Source of the DNA: an uncultured Prevotellaceae bacterium
GTDB lineage: Bacteria; Bacteroidota; Bacteroidia; Bacteroidales; Muribaculaceae
NCBI GenBank assembly: GCA_900322135.1
Contig: ONYP01000021.1
Location: 1-35,654, forward strand
DNA: 35,654 bases
Direction: 5' to 3'
Position 1 is the first letter of the stretch, and each line of letters starts with the position of its first letter. A program made the translations under genes and the position numbers. Shown in pieces: positions 8,132 to 35,654 of the stretch. The notes under the pieces were generated by a model. The model did not search any database. It was not told where the DNA came from and saw only the letters and a program-made list of their open reading frames with translations.

Positions 8132-10368
8132 ATGAGAAGATACTTTTTGACACTAATGATGGCACTGCTGGTCGTGATGACCGTTGCAGCCGACACATTC
8201 ACGGGCCGTGTGGTTGATGAGGCCCAGGCGCCGGCACCGTTTGCCAATGTGGTGCTGCTCAATGCCAGCGACAGCGCTTTTGTCGCAGGAACAATGACTG
8301 ATGATGACGGCCGTTTTGTGCTCACGGGCATTGCCGCCCAACCCGTTATTAAAATCACTTACCTCGGCTACAAGCCACAGGTGCTGGTCGGCAAGAACGC
8401 CGATATGGGCACCATCGCTCTGGAGCCTGAAACGGCCATGCTGGGCGAGGTCGTTGTCAAGGGTGAACGCCCAGCCTTCAAGTTGACGACCGAGGGCCTC
8501 AAGACCGATGTGGAGAACACCTTGTTGAGCAAGGTGGGCACCGCCAAGGCCGTGCTCGAGAACCTGCCGGGTGTGCAGAAGAAAAAAGACGGCATCGAGG
8601 TCTTCGGCAAGGGCACTCCGCTCATCTATGTCAACGGCCGCAAACTCCAAAACCAGACCGAACTGGACCAGATCAGCAGCGAGGACATCCAGAGTGTGGA
8701 ACTGATTACCAACCCAGGGGCAAAATATGACGCCACGGTCGAGTCGGTCATCCTCATCAAGACCAAGCGGCCACAGGGCGAGGGCTTCAGTTTCAACGCC
8801 CAGGCCAGCCAATATGTGGGAGAGGGTCCCGACCTGGCGCTGGGCCTGAACTGGAACTACCGTCATCGGGGGCTGGACGTTTTCGGAAGCGTGTGGTATA
8901 ACGATGACAGGTACCTGGAGAATGATGACTTTGTCTTTGACGTACAAGCCGACACCACATGGCGCATGAATGAGCATTCCGACATCAAGACCCACGACAA
9001 CTCTATTTACACCTCGGCGGGCATGAACTATATCTTCAATGACAACCACTCGATGGGATTCCGCTACGACACCAAGGCCTTTTTCCTGAACCGTAGCCGC
9101 GGCACCTTCACCGCCGACGTCATGGCCAACGGCGACTTCTATGACCATTTGGAAAATGGTATGCACATGTCCAGCAAGTTCAATATGCCCCACACCCTCA
9201 ATGCCTACTATAACGGCAAGGTGGGCAAAACCTCGATTGACTTCAACACCGACTACGTCTTCCACAAGGAACGCAAGAGCCAGTTCAACGACGAGGTGAG
9301 CCAGGAGTGGGAAAGCCGCACGGTGACCAGCACCAGCGTGATTCGCAACCAACTGTGGGCCGCCAAACTCGTCCTCTCATGGTCCCTGTGGGGAGGCAAC
9401 CTGCAGGTGGGCACCGAGTATGACCACACGCACCGCAACGACGACTACATCAACCCCGAGCAGGTCGTGCCCACGTCCTTTACCGAGCAGAAGGAGCACA
9501 ACTACATCTTCTTTGCCGAGTACGGCCACACGCTGCCTTTCGGCCAGTTGAAGGTGGGCCTGCGCAACGAGAACGTCAACACCGATTACTACAGCCAGGG
9601 CGTACACATGGCCGAGCAGAGCCGCAATTACCACCACTTCTTCCCCAGCGTGGGCCTAGTGGCACGGGCGGGCAATGTGCAACTGATGCTGAACTATGCG
9701 ATGAAGATTAAACGTCCCGGCTATTGGCAACTACGAAACAGCGTCACCTATGCCAACCGTTTCACGTGGGACAGCGGCAACCCCCTGCTCAAGCCCACCA
9801 TCAACAACGAGGTGTCGCTCATGGCGATGTACAAGTGGGTCAACCTGATGCTGGCCTACAAGCACGACCGTGACGTGATTGTCAATGTGGCTCATGAGAT
9901 ACCCGGCAGTGAGGCCACCACCCTGATGACTAAAGAGAATGTGGACCACAAGGATGCCATGCGCGTGATGCTCACCTTCTCTCCCCGCTTCAGACTCTAC
10001 CAGCCGTCATTGACGCTGGGCATGATCAAGGAGTGGATCAAGATTCCGTCACCCATCGGTTTCATCTCCCCCAAGAATCCGCTCTACCTCGTGCAGTTCA
10101 GCAACAATTTCCAGATTCTGCACGCTATCATATCGACATCGGCGCCACCAAGACCTTCCTGAACGATCGCCTGTCCATACAGGTGACGGGGCACAACCTG
10201 CTCAACTCGCAGGAGCATTACAAGGTGCGCTACGGCTTGCGCAACATCTGCCAGACCCAGCGCCGTGATGTCCGCGAGGTGGAATTCACCGTCCGCTACA
10301 AGTTCAACGCCACTCCGAGCAAGTACAAGGGCACCGGTGCAGGCGCCAGCGAGAAGGAAAGACTCTAA
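8132..10368 (+). pseudogene. TonB-type outer membrane beta-barrel protein, frameshifted near the 3' end
   Basis: The first frame (8132-10162) encodes a signal peptide (MRRYFLTLMMALLVVMTVAA), a carboxypeptidase-regulatory-like domain (about 22-100: GRVVDEAQAPAPFANVVLL), a plug-like domain (about 110-205: NLPGVQKKKDGIEVFGKG ... VELITNPGAKYDA) and most of an OMP_b-brl_3 barrel. After FSNNFQIL, near 10120, it runs into unrelated residues and stops. The family's C-terminal barrel (RYHIDIGATKTFLNDRLSIQ ... EVEFTVRYKF) continues in another frame up to 10368. Homologues normally have about 20-30 residues between these two blocks, so a deletion of non-triplet length is likely, not a single-base slip. 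The product would lack its last strands and probably not assemble. A sequencing or assembly error is the alternative. Confidence 0.8.
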
Positions 10369-14716: not shown

Positions 14717-15259
14717 TCAATAGTTCTCGGCCTTGATCTGGAAGTAGGCACGCGGGTGGTTGCACACGGGGCACATTTCGGGGGCCTTCTTGCCGATAAC
14801 CACATGGCCGCAGTTGCTGCACTGCCAGATGGTGTCGCCGTCGCGCGAGAACACGATGTCCTGCTTGATGTTGTTCAGCAGTTTCAGGTAGCGCTCCTCG
14901 TGCAGTTTCTCGATGGCGGCAACGCCCTCCATCTGCTCGGCGATTTCGATGAAACCTTCCTCGCGTGCTTCCTCGGCCATGCGCTTGTACATGTCGGTCC
15001 ACTCAAAGTTCTCGCCGGCTGCGGCGTCCTCCAGGTTCTCGATGGTACCCTTCACGGCACCGCCCTGCAGGTGCTTGAACCACAGTTTGGCATGCTCTTT
15101 CTCCTGGTTGGCGGTCTCTTCAAAGATGGCAGCGATCTGCACATAGCCGTCTTTCTTGGCCTTGGAGGCGTAGTAGGTGTACTTGTTGCGTGCCTGTGAC
15201 TCGCCGGCAAAGGCTTCCATCAGGTTCTTTTCGGTCTTGGTTCCTTTTAAGTCCTTCAT
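14717..15259 (-). CDS. rbr: rubrerythrin
   Basis: A 180-residue rubrerythrin. The ferritin-like di-iron domain shows Glu20 ([10 protein letters not shown]), Glu53 and His56 ([12 protein letters not shown]), and further Glu ligands in the second helix pair ([19 protein letters not shown] and EKLHEERY). A C-terminal rubredoxin-like Fe(SCys)4 site is formed by CSNCGH and CPVCNHP. The enzyme reduces hydrogen peroxide in the cytoplasm of anaerobes with NAD(P)H-linked electron donors. Length and both metal sites match the canonical family. The gene is monocistronic with its own promoter, downstream of but separate from pdxB. Confidence 0.97.
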
Positions 15260-24267: not shown

Positions 24268-26250
24268 ATGAAAAATATAATCATATTGGTTACTTTAGCT
24301 TCTTGGGCGCTATGCTCTCAAGCTATTGATGTGGAGAATCTTGCCGGCAGCTTGGCTGAGAAAGTCAATGACCAGTCGGTAGAATCGTTGACTGTGACTG
24401 GTACCATGAATGCCGAGGATTTCTATTTCATCAGCAGCAACTTGCACGAGTTGGTCACCCTGGACATCCAGGATGTGACGATTGAACCGTGCAGGACTGC
24501 CCAGTTTCATTACTGGCGAAACGACTTCCCTGCCAATGAAATTCCCACGGGCGCACTTGCCGACATGAAGTTGGCCAATGTGGCCCTGCCAGCCACCGCC
24601 AGTGTTATTCAGGAAGCCGCCTTCGCGGGTTGCGCAAGACTGGAGACGATACTCTTGCCCGCTGCGCTCGACAGCATCGGCAATTATGCCTTTGCGGGCT
24701 GTTCTGCACTGCAGGCGGTTACTTTGCCAGCCAGCGTGCGGGCCGTGGGCGATGGCGCTTTCATGCGGTGCTCGTCGCTTGAGCGCATCACTGTTGAGCC
24801 TTCAGGACGCTTGAGCACCATGGGTGAGGCTGCTCTCATGGACTGCCCGCTGTTGACCGATGTCACCCTGGGCGAAGCATTGCTGGCCACAGGCGAACGG
24901 CTTATGGCAGGTAGCGGTGTGAGCAACCTGGACTTGACTGCCAGCAAGCGCTTGGAAACCCTGGGCGACTGGATGATGGTCAAGACCCCCGTGACCACTG
25001 CTGCATTGCCCGCAGGATTGAGAAGCGTGGGCAAGGGTGCTTTCCTCTATGCTACCGACTTGACCACGCTCACTATGGGCGAGGCTTTGAGTATATTGGG
25101 TGACTACGCCATGGCGGGTTCGGGTCTCGATGGTGACATCGAGTTCACGGGTTTGTCACAGATGGGCGATTATGCGTTATATAATGTTACCGGCTTGTCA
25201 CAGGTGACATTGCCGGAATCCACTGCATGGCTGGGAGACTCGGCCATGGCTGGCATGACCGGGCTGGAGGCTTTAACTTGCCTTGCTGCCGAGGTGCCCG
25301 AGCTGGGCGAGAATGTGTGGGCTGGTGTCGATCAGCAGTCAGTGCCCTTGACGGTGCCCTCCTCGTCGGTGGACCTCTACAAGGCCGCCGAGCAATGGAA
25401 GGAGTTCCTCTACGGTGAAGAGTGGCTGCGGGGCGATGTGAATGGTGACGGCGAGGTGAATATCGCCGACATGAATGCCCTGCTCGGCATCATCTTGGGT
25501 GGCACTGCCGATGATGCGATGATGCGCCGTGCCGATGTCAACGAGGACGGCGAGATTGGCATTGCCGATATGAATGCCGTGCTGGATATCATCTTGTCAC
25601 CGAGCAGCATGTCGTCTGCTGTTGTTGACTGTGACGACCTGTTGCTCATGGATGACTTGGCTATCATGCCGGGCGAACAGCGCACCGTGACCGTCAAGTT
25701 GGACAATGCCGAGGCCTATAGCGCTCTGCAATGTGATGTGACCTTGCCTCAGGGCTTGACGATAAGCGGCAATGGAATGACAATCGCTTCTGACGCCCAA
25801 GACCATACGGTCCAAATGCGTGCCATGGATGCCTCCACCACCCGCACGGTGGTTTACTCGATGAGCAAGAGCCAATTCGAGGGCGAGGACAATGCTGTCA
25901 TTTCCTTCACTGTGACGGCCGATGCCACGCTGGCTGCCGAGGCTCAGATCCTGTTGTCCAACATCGTGCTTACCGGCGACGACAACAAGGCTTGTCATGT
26001 GCCGGATTATAGTGCACGGGTAACCAACAGCACCGGCATTGAGGATATGACGGTTGCCGCCGACCGTGTATGGACCGAGGGCCGCGCCCTGTGCATTGAT
26101 TCCCGCGATGGTGGTGAGGCCCGTCTGGCGACTGTCAACGGAGTGACCCGCTCTGTTTCCTTAGACATGGGCGTCAACCGTTATGTGCTGGATCCAGGGT
26201 TCTATGTGGTCACGGTGAACGGCAAGAGCTACAAGATAGTGATTAAGTAA
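24268..26250 (+). CDS. BspA-type LRR surface protein with dockerin pair, cohesin-like domain and T9SS tail (paralogue)
   Basis: A 660-residue paralogue of the preceding gene with the same order: signal peptide, BspA/LRR_5 repeats (about 40-375), a dockerin pair, a cohesin-like domain (about 465-585: [28 protein letters not shown], given in full over positions 25660-25750) and a T9SS-like tail ([18 protein letters not shown]). Both carry the near-identical block [18 protein letters not shown] before the dockerin. The dockerin loops differ in flavour: [19 protein letters not shown] and [19 protein letters not shown] carry IAD-MNA where the first protein has IND-VTA, at the positions that set partner specificity in known dockerins. 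The trmB start lies 13 bp beyond the stop. Confidence 0.88.
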
Positions 26251-26263
26251 ACAAGCAATAGAT

Positions 26264-27046
26264 ATGGGCAAGAACAAACTCAAGAAATTTGCCGACATGA
26301 AGCGCATGCAGTGCGTCTTCCAGTTCCCCTTTGCTGTCGTGCAGCAGGGTGGATGTCCCATGCGCGGCAAGTGGAATGAGCAGTATTTCAACAACGGCAA
26401 TCCCATCGTGCTCGAGTTGGGCTGCGGCAAGGGCGAGTATGCCGTGGGACTGGCGCAGCGCTTCCCCGGAAAGAACTACATCGGCGTGGACATTAAGGGT
26501 GCACGCATGTGGACCGGAGCCAAGATGGCGACCGAACAGGGACTGCCCAATGTGGCATTCCTGCGCACCAACATCGAGTTGATCGACCGCATGTTCGCTC
26601 CCGGCGAGGTGGCCGAGATCTGGATTACCTTCCCCGACCCGCAGATGAAGAAGGTCAACAAGCGCCTCACATCGACCCGCTTCCTGGACAACTACCGCAA
26701 CATCCTCAAGGACGGCGGGCTCGTGCACCTGAAGACCGACAGCCCCTTCCTGTACACCTACACCCACGCCCTCGTCGAGGAGAACCGTCTGCCCGTCGAG
26801 GCCGACACCGATGACCTGTATGCCAGCGGCATGGCCGACGACATCCTGGACATCAAGACGCACTATGAGATGCAGTGGCTGCAGCGCGGACTGACCATCA
26901 AGTACATCCGCTTTGCCCTGCCTCATGGCGTGGAACTCGTTGAACCCGACATCGACATCGAGCCCGACACCTACCGCAGCTACAACCGTGGTTATATCCA
27001 GATGCCGCAACTCATGCACGATGCTGAAAACGACAATAACCCTTAA
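26264..27046 (+). CDS. trmB: tRNA (guanine-N7-)-methyltransferase
   Basis: A 260-residue class I SAM methyltransferase making m7G46 in tRNA. The SAM loop is [16 protein letters not shown] (about 47-62). The family signature [16 protein letters not shown] and the substrate stretch [13 protein letters not shown] follow in order. Bacteroidetes TrmB proteins have a slightly longer N-terminus ([12 protein letters not shown] ...), as here. The gene starts 13 bp after the BspA paralogue's stop and 30 bp before mrp. Co-transcription with mrp is plausible; linkage with the surface protein is likely accidental. Confidence 0.95.
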
Positions 27047-27076
27047 CCTGTAACTTATAACCTATTAGACTAAAAT

Positions 27077-28180
27077 ATGACTATTTATCCGAATCTGGTA
27101 CTGGATGCCCTGCGCACCGTGCGCTATCCCGGAACGGGAAAGGACATCGTCGAGATGCAAATGGTGAATGACGACATTCGCATCGATGGTAATCGCGTGA
27201 GCTTCTCGCTCACCTTTGAAAAACCCACCGACCCGTTCATCAAGAGCGTGGTCAAGGCTGCCGAGGCAGCCATCCTGGCCCATGTGGGCGGTGATGTGGA
27301 CATCAAGGGGAACATCGGGGTGAAGACCCGTCAGGACAACCCCGTGCGCAAAATAGAGAACCCGCTGCCCGGCGTGAAGAACATCATCGCCGTTAGTTCC
27401 GGCAAGGGCGGCGTGGGCAAGTCGACCGTTGCCTGCAACCTGGCAGTGGCACTGGCCATGCAGGGCTACCGTGTGGGACTGCTGGATGCCGACATCTTCG
27501 GCCCCTCGATGCCCAAGATGTTCGGAGCCGAGCAGGAACAGCTCTACATGCACGAGGTCGACGGCAAGAACCTGATTATCCCCCTCGAGAAATATGGCGT
27601 GAAGATGCTCTCTATCGGCTTCCTCGTTGACAAGGAGAAGGCTGTGCTGTGGCGCGGCGCTATGGCGAGCAACGCCCTTAGGCAACTCATCACCGAGGCC
27701 GACTGGGGCGAGCTTGACTATTTCCTCATTGACATGCCGCCGGGCACCAGCGACATCCATCTGACCCTGGTGCAGACCCTCGCCATCACGGGGGCCATCG
27801 TGGTTACCACACCCCAGGAGGTCGCTCTGGCCGACGCCCGCAAGGGCATCAGCATGTTCATGGGCGAGCATGTGGGTGTGCCCGTGCTGGGCATCGTCGA
27901 GAACATGTCATGGTTCACGCCCGCTAGCCACCCCGATGAGCAGTACTTCATCTTCGGCAAGGACGGCGGCAAACTGCTTGCCGAGAAACTGGATGTGGAA
28001 CTGCTCGGACAGGTTCCGCTGGTGGCCGGCATCTGCAAGGGCAGCGACGACGGCCTGCCCGTCGTCAGGATGAACGATGTGAGCGGCGTGGCATTCAAGC
28101 AACTCGCCACCCGCGTTATCGAGGCGGTGGACAAGCGCAACAAGACGCTGCCGCCCACCGAGGTCGTGCAAACCCATTAA
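27077..28180 (+). CDS. apbC: Mrp/ApbC-type iron-sulfur carrier P-loop ATPase
   Basis: A 367-residue Mrp/NBP35 ATPase. An N-terminal MIP18/DUF59 domain (about 1-85) precedes the ParA/MinD-like ATPase with the deviant Walker A SSGKGGVGKSTVACNLA (about residue 108), Walker A' LLDADIFGPSMPKM, and Walker B-like FLIDMPPGTSDIHLTL. The family delivers Fe-S clusters to apoproteins in the cytoplasm. The CxxC pair that binds the bridging cluster in E. coli ApbC is not present: the segment reads ENMSWFTPASHPDEQYFIFG, and only two isolated Cys occur in the whole protein. Cluster binding must therefore differ, if it occurs. Follows trmB by 30 bp. Confidence 0.93.
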   Translation: MTIYPNLVLDALRTVRYPGTGKDIVEMQMVNDDIRIDGNRVSFSLTFEKPTDPFIKSVVKAAEAAILAHVGGDVDIKGNIGVKTRQDNPVRKIENPLPGVKNIIAVSSGKGGVGKSTVACNLAVALAMQGYRVGLLDADIFGPSMPKMFGAEQEQLYMHEVDGKNLIIPLEKYGVKMLSIGFLVDKEKAVLWRGAMASNALRQLITEADWGELDYFLIDMPPGTSDIHLTLVQTLAITGAIVVTTPQEVALADARKGISMFMGEHVGVPVLGIVENMSWFTPASHPDEQYFIFGKDGGKLLAEKLDVELLGQVPLVAGICKGSDDGLPVVRMNDVSGVAFKQLATRVIEAVDKRNKTLPPTEVVQTH

Positions 28181-28225
28181 TGAATAAGAATAATCCGTTA
28201 TTTGTATAACCAAAATCTACCGATT

Positions 28226-29023
28226 ATGAAAAAGATTATCGCAATGCTGGCTGTAGTGGCAATGTTGCTCACCAGCTGTGGCTCGGTTCCCATCACGGGT
28301 CGCAAACAATTGTTGATCGTCAGTGATCAGGAGGTGCTGGCTGCAAGTCTCCAACAGTATGCTAGTTTCATGCAGACCGCACAGATCTCGACCCAGAAGG
28401 CTAAGAGTGCCCAGGTAACGCGTGTGGGACAGCGCATCGCTGCCGCTACCGAGGCCTATCTCTCGGCTAATGGTATGCAGGATGAATTGCAGAACTACGC
28501 TTGGGAGTTCAATCTGGTCAAGAGTGATGAGGTGAATGCCTGGTGTATGCCTGGCGGCAAGATTGTAGTCTATGAGGGCATCATGAACCTCGTGAGCAGC
28601 GACGATGAGTTGGCTGTGGTGATTGGCCACGAGGTGGCCCATGCTGTTGCCAAGCATAGCAACGAGCGCATGAGCCAACAGGTACTGGCCGAGTATGGCG
28701 CTGCCGCTGTCGGCATCTTCACCAGCGGCAAGAGCGTTGCCACCCAGCAGATTGCACAGCAGGTTTACGGCCTGGGTGCACAGTATGGCGTGATGCAGCC
28801 GTTCTCGCGCAAGCATGAGAGCGAGGCCGACAGGATGGGCCTCGAACTGATGACAATTGCTGGTTATAACCCCGATGTTGCTATCACCTTCTGGCAGAAG
28901 ATGGCTGCCACCACAACCCAGGAGCCGCCCGAGTTCATGAGTTCGCACCCGAGCCATGCCACCCGCATCTCCGACATTGCGAAGTGGTTGCCACAGGTCA
29001 AGCAGAAGTACGGTGTCAAGTAA
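28226..29023 (+). CDS. M48 family zinc metallopeptidase lipoprotein
   Basis: A 265-residue lipoprotein: signal peptide MKKIIAMLAVVAMLLTSC with the lipobox ending at Cys18. The peptidase domain has the zinc motif HEVAH (about residues 139-143) and the third ligand in ESEADRMG. SSHPSHATRISDI near the end is typical of M48 (BepA/LoiP/YcaL-like) periplasmic proteases, which take part in outer-membrane protein quality control. I chose ATG 28226; the TTG at 28202 would put eight residues before an otherwise ideal signal peptide. The following DUF3256 gene starts directly after the stop codon (0 bp), so they form an operon with xseA. Confidence 0.93.
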   Translation: MKKIIAMLAVVAMLLTSCGSVPITGRKQLLIVSDQEVLAASLQQYASFMQTAQISTQKAKSAQVTRVGQRIAAATEAYLSANGMQDELQNYAWEFNLVKSDEVNAWCMPGGKIVVYEGIMNLVSSDDELAVVIGHEVAHAVAKHSNERMSQQVLAEYGAAAVGIFTSGKSVATQQIAQQVYGLGAQYGVMQPFSRKHESEADRMGLELMTIAGYNPDVAITFWQKMAATTTQEPPEFMSSHPSHATRISDIAKWLPQVKQKYGVK

Positions 29024-29665
29024 ATGAGACGCCTCTATAGCATCCTTGTTTTGTCGTTGGTGTTGATGCCATCGACATTGGCGGCTCGCACGATTGCTGA
29101 CTTTTTCGCCAGCGAACCGGGCAACATCTTCACCCTGTTGACGCAAACCCACCGCCTGGATATGGTCGACTACTACAACAGCGGCCAAGTGGTGGCTGTG
29201 CCCAATAATCTGGCAGGAGAGGCCCGGCTCATCGAGTTGGACAGCACCTACCTCAAGGTGCAGGCCAGTGGCAGCCGTGTGGTGGAGATGCTGATGAGAA
29301 AAGCGGGCAAGGACACGGTCATCACCGTCATCGAGACGGTGATGACTCCCGTGCCCGATAGCCGGCTCACCCAGTGGAATGTCCACTGGCAGCGGTACAT
29401 CAGCGACCGGCTGTTCCCCGCACCCGGTATCGATGATTTCATTGTCGGCAAGATGCCGCAGGACCTGAGGCAGGACCTGCAGGACGCGATGATTTTTCCG
29501 CTCATCCAACTCACTTTCAAGGGTGAGAATCGAGACATCATCGAGGCCACGCATGGCCTGGAGAAGTTCCTCGCGCCCAGCGAGTACAAGCGCTTTGCCC
29601 CTTACCTGAAGCCATCATTCAGTTATCGTTTCGATGGCCTGAAAATCAAGCCTGTCAAGAAGTAA
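29024..29665 (+). CDS. DUF3256 family protein, exported
   Basis: A 213-residue protein with a signal peptide (MRRLYSILVLSLVLMPSTLAA), resembling DUF3256, a Bacteroidales family. The family pattern is visible in TIADFFASEPGNIFTLLTQ, RLDMVDYYNSGQ and VITVIETVMTPVPDSRLTQW. Function is unknown. It probably sits in the periplasm. It starts immediately after the M48 stop codon and ends 2 bp before xseA, so it is firmly embedded in the operon, an arrangement seen in this order. Confidence 0.85.
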   Translation: MRRLYSILVLSLVLMPSTLAARTIADFFASEPGNIFTLLTQTHRLDMVDYYNSGQVVAVPNNLAGEARLIELDSTYLKVQASGSRVVEMLMRKAGKDTVITVIETVMTPVPDSRLTQWNVHWQRYISDRLFPAPGIDDFIVGKMPQDLRQDLQDAMIFPLIQLTFKGENRDIIEATHGLEKFLAPSEYKRFAPYLKPSFSYRFDGLKIKPVKK

Positions 29666-29667
29666 CC

Positions 29668-30990
29668 ATGCAAGAACAATCACTTTTCTCTAACTCGTCT
29701 CAGGGCATCACCCTGAGCCGGTTCAATGCGCTCATCACCCAGGCCATCAACTCAACACCTGGCCTGCAGAACCAGTGGGTCATCGCCGAGACGAGCGACC
29801 TGCGTGTCGTGCGTGGCCATTGCTATATGGAACTTGTCGAGAAAAACGATGTTGGGACAACTGTGGCCAAACTCAACGCTGTCATCTGGGGCAGCAATTA
29901 CCCCCAATTGATGGCCAAATTCATGGCTGCGACGGGTGCTGAACTCAAGACAGGCATGAAGGTGATGGTCAGGGTGTCGGCCAGCTACCATAGCCAGTAT
30001 GGCTTCAAGGCCGTTATCAACGACATCGACCCCAGTTACACCATGGGCGACATGGCGCGGCAGCGCCTCGAGATTCTCAAGCGCCTCAAGGCCGACGGCA
30101 TCATCGACATGAACAAGGAACTGCCCATCACCGCAGTGCCGCAGCGCATTGCCGTCATCTCGGCAGCAGGGGCAGCAGGCTACGGCGACTTCATGAACCA
30201 GTTGGAGCGCAACCCTTATCGCCTGAAGTTCTACACCTGCCTGTTCGGTGCATCGATGCAGGGAGCGCAGACCGTGCCCACCGTCTTGGCCGCCCTCGAC
30301 CGCATCAATGACCACCTTGATCTGTTCGATGCCGTGGTCATCATCCGTGGCGGTGGTGCGACATCAGAACTCAATTCGTTCGACAACTACGACCTGGCTG
30401 CCGCTGTGGCGCAGTTCCCGCTGCCGGTCATCGTCGGCATCGGACACGACCGCGACGAGACGGTATTGGACTTTGTGGCAGCCATCAGGGTCAAGACACC
30501 TACTGCAGCCGCCGAGTGGCTCATCAACCGGGGCACCAACGCCCTGGCACACCTCGACGAACTGCAGAAAACCGTCGTCACCGCTGTGCGCGACACCGTG
30601 GCGCATGCCCGGGAGCAACTGGCCTATTACACCAGCATGATTCCCGCCGCGTCGCGTCGCATCATTGATACCAACAAGCTGCGGCTCGACAACTTCACCA
30701 AAGCCATTCCGCTGGCAGCCAACAACCTGATTACCGCTCAGCGCACCCGTCTTGACCGCGCCCAAGAGCGCATGGGCGAGGCCATTGAGCACGCCCTCCA
30801 GCGTGAGCAGCAGCGACTGCAGGCCCTGGGCGACAAGGCGGCACTGCTCTCGCCCGAGAACACCCTGCAGCGCGGCTATGCCCTCGTGACCGCAGGCGGC
30901 AAGTGCGTCACCACAAGCAGCCAATTGCAGCGCGGCGACCACATCCATGTCCAGTTCGCCGAAGGCTCCACCGATGCTACCGTCAACTAA
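29668..30990 (+). CDS. xseA: exodeoxyribonuclease VII large subunit
   Basis: A 440-residue XseA. An N-terminal OB-fold (about 10-110: ITLSRFNALITQAINST ... SASYHSQYGFKAVINDID) is followed by the catalytic domain with RIAVISAAGAAGYGDFMNQL, IIRGGGATSELNSFDNYDLA and GIGHDRDETVLDFVA. A long coiled-coil C-terminal region (about 290-400) binds the small subunits. With XseB it degrades single-stranded DNA to oligonucleotides in mismatch repair and recombination. It starts 2 bp after DUF3256 and is followed by xseB after a 171-bp repeat-bearing gap. Confidence 0.96.
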   Translation: MQEQSLFSNSSQGITLSRFNALITQAINSTPGLQNQWVIAETSDLRVVRGHCYMELVEKNDVGTTVAKLNAVIWGSNYPQLMAKFMAATGAELKTGMKVMVRVSASYHSQYGFKAVINDIDPSYTMGDMARQRLEILKRLKADGIIDMNKELPITAVPQRIAVISAAGAAGYGDFMNQLERNPYRLKFYTCLFGASMQGAQTVPTVLAALDRINDHLDLFDAVVIIRGGGATSELNSFDNYDLAAAVAQFPLPVIVGIGHDRDETVLDFVAAIRVKTPTAAAEWLINRGTNALAHLDELQKTVVTAVRDTVAHAREQLAYYTSMIPAASRRIIDTNKLRLDNFTKAIPLAANNLITAQRTRLDRAQERMGEAIEHALQREQQRLQALGDKAALLSPENTLQRGYALVTAGGKCVTTSSQLQRGDHIHVQFAEGSTDATVN

Positions 30991-31150
30991 GAGTTAGGAG
31001 TTAGGAATTAGGAATTAGAAGTGTGGCAGCCCAAAAATTCGTTTAATTCGCCGACAATAAAGTAAGCAACGCGTTAGCCATTCGTGAAATTAGTTTTAAT
31101 GGAAGATGGTGCGCGGATGCCAACATTAGTATAATTCGTTAAATTAGTAG
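30991..31150 (+). repeat. short repeats in the xseA-xseB gap
   Basis: Directly after the xseA stop are four tandem 7-mers (GAGTTAG twice, then GAATTAG twice, 30991-31018). Further on are three related AT-rich motifs of the type AATTCGTTAAATTAG at 31036-31050, 31080-31100 and 31133-31150. They separate two genes that are normally adjacent and look like low-complexity intergenic expansion. I see no gene here. Confidence 0.7.
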
Positions 31151-31508: not shown

Positions 31509-31590
31509 GCGCCTGTGGCGAAATTGGTAGACGCGCCAGACTTAGGATCTGGTAACTCAGGTTGTGTAGGTTCGAGTCCTATCAGGCGCA
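31509..31590 (+). tRNA. tRNA-Leu (anticodon UAG)
   Basis: Acceptor stem GCGCCTG (31509-31515) pairs with CAGGCGC (31583-31589), with discriminator A at 31590; CCA is not encoded. The anticodon arm CCAGA-CTTAGGA-TCTGG carries TAG at positions 34-36. There is a long variable arm, as in class II tRNAs, and the T-loop is TTCGAGT. The tRNA reads CUN leucine codons. The 3' end (31574-31591) is duplicated at 35089-35106, which marks this gene as a likely integration site. Confidence 0.96.
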
Positions 31591-31591
31591 C
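31574..31591 (+). repeat. att-like core: tRNA-Leu 3' end, left copy
   Basis: The 18 bases GAGTCCTATCAGGCGCAC cover the T-arm and acceptor 3' strand of the tRNA gene plus one base. They recur exactly at 35089-35106, 3515 bp away, in direct orientation. Integrated elements at tRNA genes leave such direct repeats. Confidence 0.7.
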
Positions 31592-31599
31592 GACGTCGA

Positions 31600-31636
31600 A
31601 TGTCAGGTGATTTTTATAGTCATCTGACATTTTTAT
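31600..31636 (+). terminator. rho-independent terminator after tRNA-Leu
   Basis: ATGTCAGGTGA (31600-31610) pairs with TCATCTGACAT (31620-31630), one G-T wobble, loop of 9 nt, followed by TTTTTAT. It would be carried by the islet if the insertion model is right. Confidence 0.8.
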
Positions 31637-31667
31637 ATGCAATTACATAATATTTTTTACAAAATGC

Positions 31668-31698
31668 TTTGAGGTAATGAAAAAATTACCTATCTTTG
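31668..31698 (+). promoter_or_regulatory. promoter with embedded palindromic operator for the DUF4160/DUF2442 pair
   Basis: TTTG (31668-31671), 19 bp, TATCTTTG (31691-31698) is a full-consensus promoter. The spacer holds a perfect palindrome, AGGTAAT (31672-31678), 6 bp, ATTACCT (31685-31691), that just touches the -7 box. A dimer bound there would block RNA polymerase. This is the usual layout of an autoregulated toxin-antitoxin or small regulator operon, and the second gene encodes an HTH-like C-terminus. Confidence 0.75.
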
Positions 31699-31725
31699 CA
31701 GTAGTGGAATCTAAAATTTAATATT

Positions 31726-31983
31726 ATGCCTGAGATTTTTAGAATGTTTGGAATGCGGTTTTTCTTCTATTCGAGGGAACATGAACCGATTCATGTGCAT
31801 GTGAAGAATGCCGATGGGAAGGCGAAGTTTGATATTTTGCCCGAGGGTATTGTTCTTGTTGAGAACAAGGGTATCAAGATTAAGGACATCAAAGCCGCCG
31901 AGATGGTTCTCGAGGAGAACAAGGAATTGGCTATTGAGAAGTGGAATGAGTATTTTGGTAAAAGCGTTAACGATGAAGATTAA
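31726..31983 (+). CDS. DUF4160 domain protein
   Basis: An 85-residue protein matching DUF4160 (MPEIFRMFGMRFFFYSREHE, then PIHVHVKN, then KIKDIKAAEMVLEENKEL and a Trp-Asn ending). Family members are small, carry the conserved H-x-P-x-H-x-H-like cluster (here HEPIHVHV), and are very often encoded next to a DUF2442 gene. The last 11 bp overlap the DUF2442 start, so the two are translationally coupled. They are suspected to form toxin-antitoxin-like pairs; the activity is not established. Base composition is AT-richer than in the genes before the tRNA. Confidence 0.85.
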   Translation: MPEIFRMFGMRFFFYSREHEPIHVHVKNADGKAKFDILPEGIVLVENKGIKIKDIKAAEMVLEENKELAIEKWNEYFGKSVNDED

Positions 31984-32380
31984 CAGGATTTGGTTTGCAG
32001 ATGACCGCATCTATGGCGAGACAGATGATGGCCGCACGTTGTGGCAGTCGCTGCTCTATTATCGTCGGTTGAGGAATGCAACCGACGAGGAGCGTAATGA
32101 CTACGAGATGGATGACGAGGGCATCCATTGGGATAAACTGGATGAGGATGTGTCATTCGAGAGCTTTGAATATGATGATCCGGAACCAGTCGGGGTTTCC
32201 AAGGTGTTCTTATCGCACCCCGAATTGAATGCCGCTGCTATCGGACGCAGACTTGGCATCAGCCAAAGCCTCATGGCTCAATACATTAACGGCATGAAAA
32301 AGCCCTCAAAAGAGCGCGAGGCTCTTATTCTGAAAGAAATCGCCACCCTCGCCGACGAATTGAAATCCATCTGTGTGTAA
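31973..32380 (+). CDS. DUF2442 domain protein with helix-turn-helix-like C-terminus
   Basis: A 135-residue protein. Residues 1-80 look like DUF2442 (MKINRIWFADDRIYGETDDG, then LWQSLLYYRRLRNATDEER and the acidic WDKLDEDVSFESFEYDDPE). Residues about 86-125 look like an XRE-type helix-turn-helix (NAAAIGRRLGISQSLMAQYI, followed by NGMKKPSKERE). I chose ATG 31973: it overlaps the DUF4160 stop by 11 bp and starts the DUF2442 homology, whereas the longer frame from 31808 lies entirely inside the DUF4160 gene. I infer that this is the DNA-binding partner acting on the palindrome at 31672-31691, as an antitoxin or repressor would. Confidence 0.85.
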   Translation: MKINRIWFADDRIYGETDDGRTLWQSLLYYRRLRNATDEERNDYEMDDEGIHWDKLDEDVSFESFEYDDPEPVGVSKVFLSHPELNAAAIGRRLGISQSLMAQYINGMKKPSKEREALILKEIATLADELKSICV

Positions 32381-32462
32381 ACACCAGTATTGATTCAGAC
32401 CACAGCAGTCGATAGAGTTAAGGCACATTGCCCCGTACCTCGTGGCGATTCCACAGCCTTCT

Positions 32463-32486
32463 GGGGGTGCGTGCGCTCCCCCTTTT
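32463..32486 (+). terminator. G-run/C-run hairpin terminator, first of three related copies
   Basis: GGGGG (32463-32467) and CCCCC (32478-32482) enclose TGCGTGCGCT, followed by TTTT. The same hairpin with nearly the same loop recurs at 34958-34981, and a variant at 33325-33353. It ends the DUF4160/DUF2442 block. The surrounding 32381-32554 holds no supported gene. Confidence 0.65.
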
Positions 32487-32554
32487 GTGAGAATATTGCC
32501 GATTTGGGCTGCCACATAAACGAAGAAATAAAGGACAGACCTTTTGATGTACAA

Positions 32555-32905
32555 TTAGAAGTCATCGTAGATAGTTTTCTTTTTAGACGGCACATAGTCA
32601 GGAGATAATCTTTCCATAATGATTCTATAGGCTTGGGTCATGTTCTTGCCTAATTCATCTTTTTTCCACACCTTCTTTTTCCAACTGCTCTCAGTGTTAA
32701 TACGCATTTTATCATCTTCATCAATAAATCTACCCCATATCTCAAGAGTCCATACTGTATCTGTCTCATTTACTTCACAACACAGAAATGGTGTCACAGA
32801 ATTCCAACGGTCAAACTCGATAGAAGACATACTTTTGTGTTCTGTCTTAGCCCCAAACGGAAACGCTGCACATAAAAGTAATATACTGATGAGGGTTCTT
32901 TTCAT
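32555..32905 (-). CDS. small secreted protein of unknown function
   Basis: A 116-residue ORF starting with a convincing signal peptide (MKRTLISILLLCAAFPFGAK) at ATG 32905; the longer start at 32917 would only add four residues in front of it. The mature part is hydrophilic with two Cys (FLCCEVNETDTVWTLEIWG), and its C-terminus (SWKKKVWKKDELGKNMTQAY) is basic. I recognise no family. The minus strand has a near -7 box (TATCTTAG) about 20 bp upstream. It is AT-rich like the other islet genes and is transcribed against them. The signal peptide and codon pattern make it more likely real than not. Confidence 0.55.
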   Translation of the reverse strand: MKRTLISILLLCAAFPFGAKTEHKSMSSIEFDRWNSVTPFLCCEVNETDTVWTLEIWGRFIDEDDKMRINTESSWKKKVWKKDELGKNMTQAYRIIMERLSPDYVPSKKKTIYDDF

Positions 32906-33005
32906 AATACTTTTCAATCAGATAGTTGCTAAGATAACCAATAATCTAGAATCTACAATAACAATACCTTTTTCTGCTGAGTAATTACTAAAGCGTTAAT
33001 TTATG

Positions 33006-33020
33006 TGGCATGGTTTTTGC
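33006..33020 (+). promoter_or_regulatory. sigma-54-like (-24/-12) promoter
   Basis: TGGCATGGTTTTTGC has GG and GC with exactly the -24/-12 spacing and fits TGGCAYRNNNNTTGC without mismatch. Transcription would start near 33032, 16 nt before ATG 33048. No TAnnTTTG box is seen in this gap. RpoN and its activators are not in this window, so use of the site is inference. Confidence 0.5.
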
Positions 33021-33047
33021 GGGAATGATTGAAAAACGGATACCAAT

Positions 33048-33290
33048 ATGGTTGATTTTTTCACTGGAATTTTCACGAACTTTGGGGTGGTGTTTGGCAG
33101 CGTGATTGCATTGATTTTAGCGTTGCTGATTTTTGCCATCTATGCACTGCTGGCTGTTTTGGGATTAATTCTGGCCTATGCGATTTTAAAAGCATTGTTG
33201 TTCTGGATTTGCCGTTTTTTTGCTTGGGTATTACCATCAGATTCAGACTCACACAGGTGGTTTGTAGAGCAGTATAAAAGATTAAGGTAA
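33048..33290 (+). CDS. small membrane protein, 80 residues
   Basis: An 80-residue protein with one or two long hydrophobic stretches (about 5-60, including VIALILALLIFAIYALLAVL). It ends in an aromatic and basic polar tail (SDSDSHRWFVEQYKRLR). It would be inserted in the inner membrane with the tail in the cytoplasm. No family is recognised. A sigma-54-like promoter directly precedes it. In size, layout and promoter type it is reminiscent of the sigma-54-dependent E. coli PspG, but there is no clear sequence match, so this is only an analogy. A membrane-acting toxin is another option. Confidence 0.6.
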   Translation: MVDFFTGIFTNFGVVFGSVIALILALLIFAIYALLAVLGLILAYAILKALLFWICRFFAWVLPSDSDSHRWFVEQYKRLR

Positions 33291-33324
33291 TCAAGGGTGG
33301 TGACCTTATGGTCTTATTTATTTC

Positions 33325-33466
33325 GGGGGGAGCGTGGGCACCCCCCCCTTTTTGCGCGGTTTAAAGCCTTTAGACGCCTTTAGACGCCTCATCGGCTTCC
33401 AGGAAAACGCTGTCAATCAGGCGTCGGGAGGTTTTTGAGGTTTTTGGAGGCGCGAACCTGAGTCCT
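33325..33466. repeat. structured 140-bp element, copy 1
   Basis: Begins with a G-run/C-run hairpin plus T-run (33325-33353). It continues with GCGCGGTTTAAAGCC and the tandem GCCTTTAGAC, an inner inverted repeat GACGCCT/AGGCGTC, and ends in GGCGCGAACCTGAGTCCT at 33449-33466. The last bases match the tRNA-Leu T-arm (GAGTCCT), after which similarity to the tRNA stops. Copy 2 lies at 34958-35095. The region 33291-33600 holds no gene. Confidence 0.75.
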
Positions 33467-33600
33467 GTTTTGCTGAGTGACCTCAAAAACTTATTTTATT
33501 GTATCTCAATGGAATAAATCTTCTATGCCCCAACATTTTGAGATTTCTACAGGATTTGGCTAAAAAGATACTGAGATTTGTCCGAAAAACTCGCTATTAA

Positions 33601-33631
33601 TTTGGTGATTTGGCTTTTTGTTGTATTTTTG
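33601..33631 (+). promoter_or_regulatory. promoter of the DUF4143 ATPase gene
   Basis: TTTG (33601-33604), 19 bp, TATTTTTG (33624-33631): full consensus. It lies downstream of copy 1 of the repeat, so the ATPase forms its own transcription unit. It also rules out a start at 33618. Confidence 0.8.
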
Positions 33632-33674
33632 TGGCACAAATTTGTGTACTGTTACAAAAATATTCCACAAAACC

Positions 33675-34928
33675 ATGTTTTTTGAACGCAAACCATATCT
33701 GGAACAGCTCATCTCATCCGAGGGGAACGGGATGATTAAGGTCATCACTGGGATTCGTCGTTGTGGCAAGTCATTTCTGCTGTTTAATATCTACAAGGAT
33801 ATTTTGTTGGAAAGGGGAATACAAGAGAATCACATTATTCAAGTAAACCTGGAAGATCGCCGGAATAAGAAACTTCGTGATCCTGATGCCTTGTTGGAAT
33901 ATATTGACAAGCAGATGACCGATAAAGATATGTACTATATCTTGTTGGACGAGATTCAATTTGTCCCCGAGTTTGAAGATGTGCTGAACTCATATTTGAA
34001 TGTCAAGAATGCTGAGGTATTTGTGACGGGATCAAATGCAAAATTTCTTTCAAAAGATGTCATCACTGAATTCAGAGGCCGAGGATGGGAAATTCGCGTT
34101 CATCCGTTGAGTTTTGCTGAATATTATGGAACGGTTGGCGGTGAAAGAGCAGTTGCGCTTGAAGAGTATTATCTGTATGGCGGACTCCCCCAGGTCGCAC
34201 AAATGAGTACTCCGGCTGAGAAGGAGAACTACCTGCGTGAAATCTTTGAAACGGTTTATTTGAAAGATGTAATTGAACGCAATCATTTGCATAACGCCGA
34301 TGGGATGCGTGAACTTGTGCGCATCTTGGCTTCGGCAATGGGTTCAAGCACAAATGTCAGGCGAATAGCAAATACCTTCAAATCGGTTGGAGGGGTTGAT
34401 ATTGGTCCAAATACTATTTCCCGTTACCTAGAACACCTGCAGGATGCTTTTATCATTAGTGAAGCATTGCGTTACAATGTGAAAGGACGCAAGTATATTG
34501 GTACTGAGACCAAATACTATTTTGAGGATGTAGGTGTCAGAAATGCGATTCTAGGTTTTCGCCAGATTGAATTTAACCACACGATGGAAAATGTTGTTTA
34601 TAATGAATTGCGTCGGCTTGGATATAGCGTGGATGTCGGCCTAGTGGAGACCGCCAAAAGAAACCTTTCAGGAAAAATAGAGCGTCGTAATCTTGAAATT
34701 GACTTCGTAGTGAATCGTCACGATGAACGCTTGTACATCCAATCTGCCTACGCTCTCCCTGACAAGCAAAAGATGGATCAAGAGCAGGCATCTTTGCTCA
34801 ATGTGCCCGACGGCTTCAAAAAAGTCATCATTGTTGGAGACCGATTTGGTTCAAACTATAATGAGGATGGCATCTTAATGATTGGTATCTATGATTTCCT
34901 GCTTAATCCAGAGGCTGTGAAGCGATAG
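33675..34928 (+). CDS. AAA ATPase with DUF4143 domain
   Basis: A 417-residue protein. The N-terminal AAA_14 ATPase has Walker A ITGIRRCGKSFLLF (about 24-37) and Walker B YYILLDEIQFV (about 92-102), followed by VFVTGSNAKFLS and RGRGWEIRVHPLSFAEYY, typical of the family. The C-terminal DUF4143 domain (about 200-350) carries the PD-(D/E)XK-like signature EIDFVVNRHDERLYIQSAY, where the usual Lys of IQxK is replaced by Ser. This family is widespread, present in many copies per Bacteroidales genome, and of unknown function. ATG 33675 follows the promoter at 33601-33631 by 43 bp; the longer frame from 33618 starts inside it. Base composition is AT-rich, and the gene lies between two copies of the 140-bp repeat. 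Confidence 0.92.
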   Translation: MFFERKPYLEQLISSEGNGMIKVITGIRRCGKSFLLFNIYKDILLERGIQENHIIQVNLEDRRNKKLRDPDALLEYIDKQMTDKDMYYILLDEIQFVPEFEDVLNSYLNVKNAEVFVTGSNAKFLSKDVITEFRGRGWEIRVHPLSFAEYYGTVGGERAVALEEYYLYGGLPQVAQMSTPAEKENYLREIFETVYLKDVIERNHLHNADGMRELVRILASAMGSSTNVRRIANTFKSVGGVDIGPNTISRYLEHLQDAFIISEALRYNVKGRKYIGTETKYYFEDVGVRNAILGFRQIEFNHTMENVVYNELRRLGYSVDVGLVETAKRNLSGKIERRNLEIDFVVNRHDERLYIQSAYALPDKQKMDQEQASLLNVPDGFKKVIIVGDRFGSNYNEDGILMIGIYDFLLNPEAVKR

Positions 34929-34957
34929 AAAGATATTAACCGGCAAGAGTTGTATAC

Positions 34958-35095
34958 GGGGGGCGTGCGCTCCCCCTTTTTGCGCCGTTCAACGCCTTTA
35001 GATGCCCTTAAACGCCTCATCGGCTTGCTGGAAAACGCTGTCAATCAGGCGTTGGGAGGTTTTTAAAGGTTTTGGCAGGCGCGAACTTGAGTCCT
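34958..35095. repeat. structured 140-bp element, copy 2
   Basis: Clearly similar to 33325-33466 along its full length: hairpin GGGGGG/CCCCC with T-run (34958-34981), GCGCCGTTCAACGCC, inner inverted repeat AACGCCT/AGGCGTT, the shared block GGAAAACGCTGTCAATCAGG, and the end GGCGCGAACTTGAGTCCT. Unlike copy 1 it runs on into the full tRNA-Leu 3' end (to 35106). Confidence 0.78.
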
Positions 35096-35106
35096 ATCAG
35101 GCGCAC
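35089..35106 (+). repeat. att-like core: tRNA-Leu 3' end, right copy
   Basis: Exact 18-bp direct repeat of 31574-31591. The heptamer CAGGCGC is also repeated just before it (35076-35082). No tRNA gene can be formed here, because the 5' half is missing. Confidence 0.7.
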
Positions 35107-35108
35107 AA

Positions 35109-35147
35109 GAAAACAAAACCCGCTGAACTCCAGCGGGTTTTGTTTTT
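35109..35147. terminator. strong bidirectional terminator
   Basis: AAACAAAACCCGCTG (35111-35125) pairs perfectly over 15 bp with CAGCGGGTTTTGTTT (35131-35145), loop of 5 nt, T-run after and A-run before. It lies directly behind the right tRNA fragment and also downstream of the minus-strand dockerin gene, so it can serve both directions. Confidence 0.9.
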
Positions 35148-35215
35148 TATAGGGAAGTTATCTTGAACTTGCGCTCACACTTCAACCTAACATACTCATT
35201 GAAGAATATCGAAGA

Positions 35216-35654
35216 TTAGTTCCCGGGCCAACTTCCTCCAAGCACGAAAGAAATCAGCGCGGTCACATCGTTGATGTCAATCTGGTTGTCGCTATTGACA
35301 CATGCACAGATAGGACAGAAATTATCAGTGTTGTTGCCCAGCACATAGGAAATCAGTGCGGTCACATCGTTGATGTCAACCCCATTGTCGTGGTTCACAT
35401 CGCCTTTCTGGAAACCATGGCCCTGATTCTCGAGCAGAGTAACAGTTTTTGCCTTGCTCCAGGGGCTCCAGGTGTCGTCGGTGTAATGGGCCTTCACGCG
35501 GAAGAAGAAGGTGCCGCCGGCTGTCAGGTTCTTAACTGTGTAGAACTTGTCGGGAGTAATACCGGTAATCAAGCGATAATCGGCATCTCCTTCCTCGTTG
35601 ACGGCTTTGAGTTTTGAAGGCTCGCTAGCATCACCTGCTAGGATTTGGATGTTT
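35216..35654 (-). CDS. fibronectin-III/dockerin secreted protein (C-terminal part, 5' end outside window)
   Basis: The minus-strand frame is open to the window edge, so at least 145 residues of the C-terminus are seen. A fibronectin-III-like module (about 35 to 90 residues in: TGITPDKFYTVKNLTAGGTF, then FFRVKAHYTDDTWSPWSKAK) is followed by two dockerin-type loops. These are GDVNHDNGVDINDVTALISY and VNSDNQIDINDVTALISF. The linker has an odd Cys cluster, FCPICACVNSD, and the last Cys takes the place of the first calcium-ligand Asp of loop 2. The protein ends right after the dockerin (GGSWPGN), so no T9SS tail is present on this end. Its loops are of the IND-VTA type, like those of the protein at 21982. 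Confidence 0.85.
   Translation of the reverse strand, partial: NIQILAGDASEPSKLKAVNEEGDADYRLITGITPDKFYTVKNLTAGGTFFFRVKAHYTDDTWSPWSKAKTVTLLENQGHGFQKGDVNHDNGVDINDVTALISYVLGNNTDNFCPICACVNSDNQIDINDVTALISFVLGGSWPGN

Follow-up and report, generated by a model that had tools for sequence, protein, structure and literature searches.

The window considered here is a 35,654-nt stretch of contig ONYP01000021.1 from an uncultured Prevotellaceae bacterium, in which a single tRNA-Leu gene is followed by a short tandem array of gene cassettes. The tRNA (31509-31591, plus strand, anticodon TAG) was called by ARAGORN and is also matched by the Rfam tRNA family (E 5.4e-12). Its 3' end, the integration target, contains the first copy of an exact 18-mer core, GAGTCCTATCAGGCGCAC (31574-31591, plus strand), and the second copy (35089-35106, plus strand) marks the right junction of the array. 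In 300 first-order Markov resamples of 31592-35654, no exact match to the tRNA exceeds 13 nt, which places the observed 18-bp copy of the tRNA-Leu 3' end beyond chance. GC content is 0.40-0.46 in 1-kb windows across the interval, as against 0.55-0.62 over 25001-31000. The chromosome resumes at 35107 with the native tRNA-Leu terminator, a perfect 16-bp inverted repeat and T run just 3' of the distal core (35110-35146, plus strand). From 35089 to 35654 the window is 79.6% identical to an empty site in a relative (L070), the match beginning within the L070 tRNA-Leu. The first-pass annotation of this DNA had described the exact duplication, the AT-rich interval, the footprint of tRNA-targeted integration and a terminator suited to the tRNA; the first three stand, and the terminator does belong to the tRNA, since it lies directly behind it in L069-L071.

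The 3.5 kb between the cores, taken earlier for a single islet, is instead an array of two to three cassettes from a genus-wide family, subdivided by elements absent from that annotation, a ~140-bp repeat at 33327-33466 and a hairpin remnant at 32463-32486. Cassette 1 (31592 to ~32486) opens, in the native terminator's place, with a terminator-like hairpin read in the sequence (31600-31634, plus strand), of which 10 of 11 pairs are Watson-Crick and which is followed by a T run; its one G-T pair puts it outside the count of perfect 9-bp stems given below. The cassette carries genes for a DUF4160 protein (31726-31983, plus strand; PF13711, E 1.4e-17) and a DUF2442 protein (31973-32380, plus strand; PF10387, E 2.8e-12), and ends in the 24-nt, plus-strand hairpin remnant of a further repeat, the remainder of which is missing; homology to L048 stops at 32486. 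Cassette 2 (~32487-33466) holds two small ORFs, one of 120 aa (32555-32917, minus strand) with no Pfam match and one of 80 aa (33048-33290, plus strand) taken from the ORF list. It ends in the attachment-site-like repeat at 33327-33466 (plus strand), which is 86-88% identical to the repeat starting at 34955 and has a core decayed after GAGTCCT. Cassette 3 (33467-35106) encodes an AAA_14/DUF4143 ATPase (33675-34928, plus strand; Pfam E 3.1e-34 and 3.5e-17) that matches the PADLOC candidate defence family PDC-S01 (E 6.7e-122). It ends in a repeat (34955-35106, plus strand) comprising a GC hairpin, a ~110-nt imperfect palindrome and an intact core, so that the right 18-mer is the terminal part of this long repeat. 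No integrase or transfer domain was found in the four window cassette proteins scanned, the 80-aa ORF lying outside the scan, in keeping with the earlier remark that the interval lacks an integrase. In a relative (L045 4362-5549, genome G018) the AAA/DUF4143 cassette gene is broken into two ORFs.

The same layout recurs across the genus. Thirty-three of the 34 non-redundant copies, a shorter one being excluded, were aligned and show a GC hairpin with a T run, a ~110-nt imperfect palindrome and then TCCTATCAGGCGCAC, the tRNA 3' end (31577-31591 in the window), which is the portion of the core that the tRNA has in common with most repeats in relatives. A few of the 33 rows, the window copy at 33327 among them, have a decayed core or another sequence in its place. 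A second repeat lineage keeps the hairpin and spacing and has the core in 9 of 11 aligned copies, with a different middle; there are two site types within one genus. In several copies (e.g. L049, L035:14288, L036:7151) GCCTGA and TCAGGC flank GTCCTA, an arrangement resembling two core-type integrase sites in inverted orientation.

Folding results for the middle are uneven. As plus-strand RNA, it beats shuffles in all six first-type copies (z -2.3 to -5.7), and outcomes are mixed for three second-type copies (z -0.9 to -3.6), for three minus strands (z -0.6 to -3.7) and for single-stranded DNA (12 copies, eight of them first-type; z -3.5 to +0.3). Consensus folding with RNAalifold recovered the long hairpin in neither repeat type. 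When the window hairpin is imposed on the 33 rows, 87.0% of cells are paired, versus 33.8-50.2% in slid versions and 86.2% in shuffled columns, and 1 of 500 column shuffles reaches the observed value. Cells changed on both sides number 10, versus 4.5 when shuffled, again reached in 1 of 500. The covariation score is reached by 148 of 500 shuffles and the slid versions have equal double changes; structure beyond sequence is therefore not demonstrated, and the repeat middle is best described as a palindrome with weak covariation, for which conserved structure is not claimed.

The repeat is found in many species; all genomes were treated as drafts, and the named ones are metagenome-assembled genomes of rumen or gut Bacteroidales. 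The repeat, core or terminator is at least partly matched in 60 of 101 genus genomes (E<=0.001), a figure that includes genomes matching only the tRNA end and terminator, or only the hairpin; the strict hairpin-spacer-core pattern occurs in 27 of the 101, with none for the reversed control. The pattern is also present in 16 stretches of the named collection (Muribaculaceae, Prevotellaceae, Bacteroidales or Bacteroidetes), three of them from goat or water-buffalo gut, and four repeat copies can stand behind one tRNA (e.g. L035, L036). Beyond the genus, a DNA search matched 26 of 297 family genomes, all in one of 30 genera, and of 393 genomes from the order only that of the window had the strict pattern; either search may miss sites that have diverged or have a different core. 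No viral contig has the exact repeat pattern and blastn of the repeat against phages and plasmids gave no match, and phage or plasmid carriage of the repeat was rejected on these searches. In the Rfam scan only the tRNA reached the gathering score. Elsewhere in the window's own genome the repeat hairpin stands by itself as a 32-nt copy (G000:C76:1970-2001).

The cassettes are bounded by the core. Core-like sites (at most four mismatches to the 18-mer) number 76 in the window and 40 loci, and were classed by script as 27 tRNA, 40 repeat and 9 neither. Starts of same-family cassettes are found both behind the tRNA and behind a repeat, and similarity to the left switches at the core. The DUF4160 cassette lies behind the tRNA in the window and L063 and behind a repeat in L044 and L048, homology to the latter two beginning at 31577 (over 31577-32486 the identity to L048 is 91.7%). 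Likewise, the cassette start behind the tRNA in L058 is behind a repeat in L047, L050 and L060, and that behind the tRNA in L039 is behind a repeat in L036. Empty sites, which the first-pass annotation proposed to look for in relatives, exist: in L069, L070 and L071 the tRNA, core and terminator lead into the flank that comes after the last repeat of the window and of L035, L049 and L058 (the L071 contig stops ~350 bp behind the tRNA). The core is commonly followed by a hairpin. Perfect 9-bp stems beginning no more than 40 nt past it are found at 42 of 59 tRNA sites and, behind an exact 15-bp core, at 28 of 38 other sites, versus 1 of 447 control windows 300-700 nt further on; this strict definition was chosen since 74 of 90 controls passed a looser terminator test.

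Cassettes have also spread between species. The content and order of cassettes at this tRNA differ from species to species, contrary to the possibility, raised at the outset, that all relatives carry the same genes there. Movement was assessed for 12 chosen cassette-gene families, alignments covering less than 60% of the shorter gene being dropped, which gave 273 aligned between-genome cassette pairs, 154 of them comparable with xseA of the same genomes. The window DUF4160/DUF2442 region is 93.9% identical to that of G073 (xseA 74.3%) and the window ATPase gene 93.8% identical to that of G064 (xseA 72.2%). Because the window cassettes are ~94% identical while the neighbouring xseA is 72-74% identical, it is concluded that cassettes move between species; some cassettes are 94-98% identical between hosts with xseA at ~72-78%.

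It is likely, in light of these junctions, empty sites and transfers, that the locus is an array of non-autonomous cassettes inserted site-specifically at the tRNA-Leu 3' end by a tyrosine recombinase acting in trans. A cassette would enter as a circle with one attachment site, consisting of the GC hairpin, the ~110-nt imperfect palindrome and the core. A tyrosine recombinase, presumably encoded by one of the rarer integrase-bearing elements and acting in trans, would then recombine the circle with the core of either the tRNA or a cassette already in place. Each insertion would rebuild an intact tRNA and, since a hairpin usually opens the cassette, would usually provide it with a new terminator. 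The first-pass annotation had offered a satellite mobilised in trans or a remnant; a satellite-like, trans-mobilised nature is retained as the best reading, and the single remnant is not. The array system may still be active.

Candidate recombinases are found at a few loci. In eight array genomes no PF00589 gene lies within an array, and two lie on an array contig, ~40 and ~62 kb away. An integrase profile of our own, run on 86 loci and not fully sensitive in that it missed a PF00589 gene in L178, found integrases in L045/L219 (one gene, G018), L142 (G049) and L159 (G006), as well as in L177, L220 and L221, loci selected for their integrases; the integrase domains were assigned by Pfam. L142 and L159 each have at this tRNA an integrase element of ~7.5 kb, which ends, ~200-230 bp from the integrase gene, in a core copy that differs at one position. 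In G018, 46 bp separate a full repeat from the start of the integrase gene (in L045 the repeat runs to 6946 and the gene from 6992), and the tRNA-Leu of that genome sits on another contig. The integrases of L142, L159 and L219 are plausible candidate helpers for the cassettes. Near the P0003-type integrases (59-61% identity) of G053 and G049:C25 no core was found within the 3.6 and 15 kb read. Among the genes behind the G018 integrase (L219 5495-8216) are weak DndB and DUF5131 matches. The window genome is a draft, 82.6% complete, and a missing integrase there consequently means little.

Several observations weigh against the proposed reading. A close P0001-type integrase, that of G018, is present in 1 of 101 genomes (other P0001 matches, in 16 of 101, are 35-45% identical), and the P0002 and P0003 elements carry a different arm beside the core, so that these candidates may not be the recombinase of most cassettes. 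The cassette is more similar than xseA in just 48 of the 154 comparable pairs, 43 of them with a margin above 5 points; the other 106 are no more similar, which fits old copies or paralogues. Certain repeats stand at places with no detected tRNA-Leu, e.g. L057 (G055:C71), L068 (G052:C51) and L064 (G095:C34); these three adjoin the same neighbour genes (clusters c32, c33) and are possibly a secondary insertion site. Finally, homologous recombination between repeats could be part of the shuffling. That it accounts for all of it, acting on a dispersed intergenic repeat near the tRNA whose core match is incidental, is nevertheless improbable: recombination would be feasible at the ~80-90% similarity of most repeat copies, and sites such as L057 and L068 would suit this account, but cassette joins switch within the 15-18-bp core, the sole stretch common to tRNA and repeat, and the empty sites stop at that same core.

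Somewhat less probable still is that the locus descends from a single ancient integrative element whose integrase was lost and which degraded where it stood. The decayed core of one window repeat and the reduction of another to a hairpin are what such a remnant might leave, but the cassettes differ in kind and order between species at this tRNA, and some are far more alike between hosts than xseA, as given above; for the whole family, a single-event remnant was rejected on this varied content and between-species identity. The proposal that the right 18-mer is a decayed second tRNA-Leu gene in tandem is hardly credible. The 18 bp are indeed a tRNA 3' end, and near-complete second tRNA-Leu genes exist in G031 and G056, but to the left of the distal core the window aligns with the long repeat instead of the tRNA. 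In these two genomes, tRNA-Leu copies lie at 2375-2457 and 14884-14966 (L140, G031) and at 2299-2381 and 8347-8429 (L141, G056), and the inserts that these copies bound are larger, with V-type ATPase genes in G031 and a LytTR protein in G056; this duplication is a different kind of event at the same tRNA.

The cargo of the cassettes is varied. The scan took in 40 proteins for 39 of 50 array-ORF clusters, four of the proteins coming from the window. The commonest cluster (c3) is a serpin with a C-terminal TonB_C domain, with 18 copies at 13 loci (e.g. L036:4054-5832, minus strand); the gene occurs twice in some arrays (L034, L036, L052, L059). Other matches are to AAA/DUF4143, ATPase_2, DUF4160, DUF2442, SIR2, Schlafen/AlbA and Mrr, and further ones to glycosyltransferase, aspartyl protease with TPR, DKNYY and LPD13, several of the matches falling below the Pfam cut-off; 13 of the 40 proteins have no Pfam match at E<=0.01. 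Beyond the array, the gene flanking it in the window contains two 63-nt repeats (35238-35399) that presumably encode dockerin-like repeats.

In its working, the array would be comparable to an integron or to cis-mobilizable islands in tandem. Integrons comprise tandem small cassettes, each with one imperfect-palindrome site, and a fixed first site; their sites have a GTTRRRY box, and their cassettes are mostly oriented one way. The array resembles them in its tandem small cassettes, single imperfect-palindrome site per cassette and fixed first site, but that first site is a tRNA 3' end, and by eye neither a GTTRRRY box nor attC R'/R'' boxes are seen at the core, the palindrome being present in first-type copies with mixed folding as single-stranded DNA. 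Unlike integron cassettes, the cargo lies mostly opposite to the tRNA strand (74 of the 99 array-landmark ORFs of at least 90 aa, with 25 on the same strand). By the integrase test the array is not an integron: TIGR02249 (IntI) is over cut-off in 0 of 101 genomes, 98 matching below it, in a run without a positive control, 13 of 14 controls matching below the cut-off and none over it. With cis-mobilizable islands targeted to tRNA genes, the array shares 3'-end direct repeats, empty sites and the lack of its own integrase or transfer genes in the scanned window proteins, L045/L219, L142 and L159 being exceptions to the integrase-less state among relatives. Tycheposons, too, are cargo elements anchored at tRNA genes. 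They are given as 4-200 kb in the available text (PMC10872708), and the cassettes here are smaller, at ~1-4.5 kb.

Closer precedents are found among genomic islands. According to the accessible part of the Dehalococcoides study (PMC3146451), a single RNA gene, ssrA, is followed by tandem islands that are flanked by 20-bp direct repeats of the gene's 3' end, next to which lies a 15-bp conserved motif. Of 31 islands, 16 have an integration module, which contains serine recombinases; the 15 that lack it are proposed there to be cis-mobilizable elements. The array is like these islands in its tandem units behind one RNA gene, its 3'-end repeats and its many integrase-less units; it is unlike them, on the same portion of that study, in its cassettes of ~1-4.5 kb with one or few genes, its ~150-bp palindromic site, and its tyrosine integrases, found in loci of just three genomes. 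In the additive flexible islands of Alteromonas a tRNA gene is the cassette insertion target (PMC4119200, PMC5217437; the former, in its available sections, also describes the integron parts intI, attI and attC), and a Methylophilaceae island is marked by repeats of the last 20 nt of tRNA-Lys (PMC10872708). These share with the array the tRNA gene as cassette target, and the available sections of the three accounts describe no long attachment repeat common to every cassette of the kind seen here. The literature search found no tRNA-anchored gene-cassette array with an integrase for Bacteroidales and no integrative element at tRNA-Leu for Muribaculaceae, and no precedent was recognised as closer than those cited; a review on mobilizable elements, in its accessible part, held no further one (PMC11389934). 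As far as these texts extend, the array is set apart from its nearest precedents by its miniature size, the long palindromic site of unrelated cassettes and the two site types per genus. Whether this amounts to a new shuffling system distinct from integrons, with entry at the tRNA-Leu 3' end, a strand-asymmetric ~110-nt palindrome plus tRNA core, cassettes that restore the tRNA and usually bring its terminator, and a remote, arm-binding tyrosine recombinase, is a tentative suggestion about which we are rather doubtful.

If the proposed reading is true, uncultured rumen and gut Bacteroidales would exchange single genes genus-wide without an integron integrase, and the exchanged cargo would include serpins, candidate defence ATPases and DUF4160/DUF2442 pairs. 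The arrays would offer a natural case of how small a non-autonomous cassette one integrase can serve, and the repeat could be used as a marker to mine such cargo.

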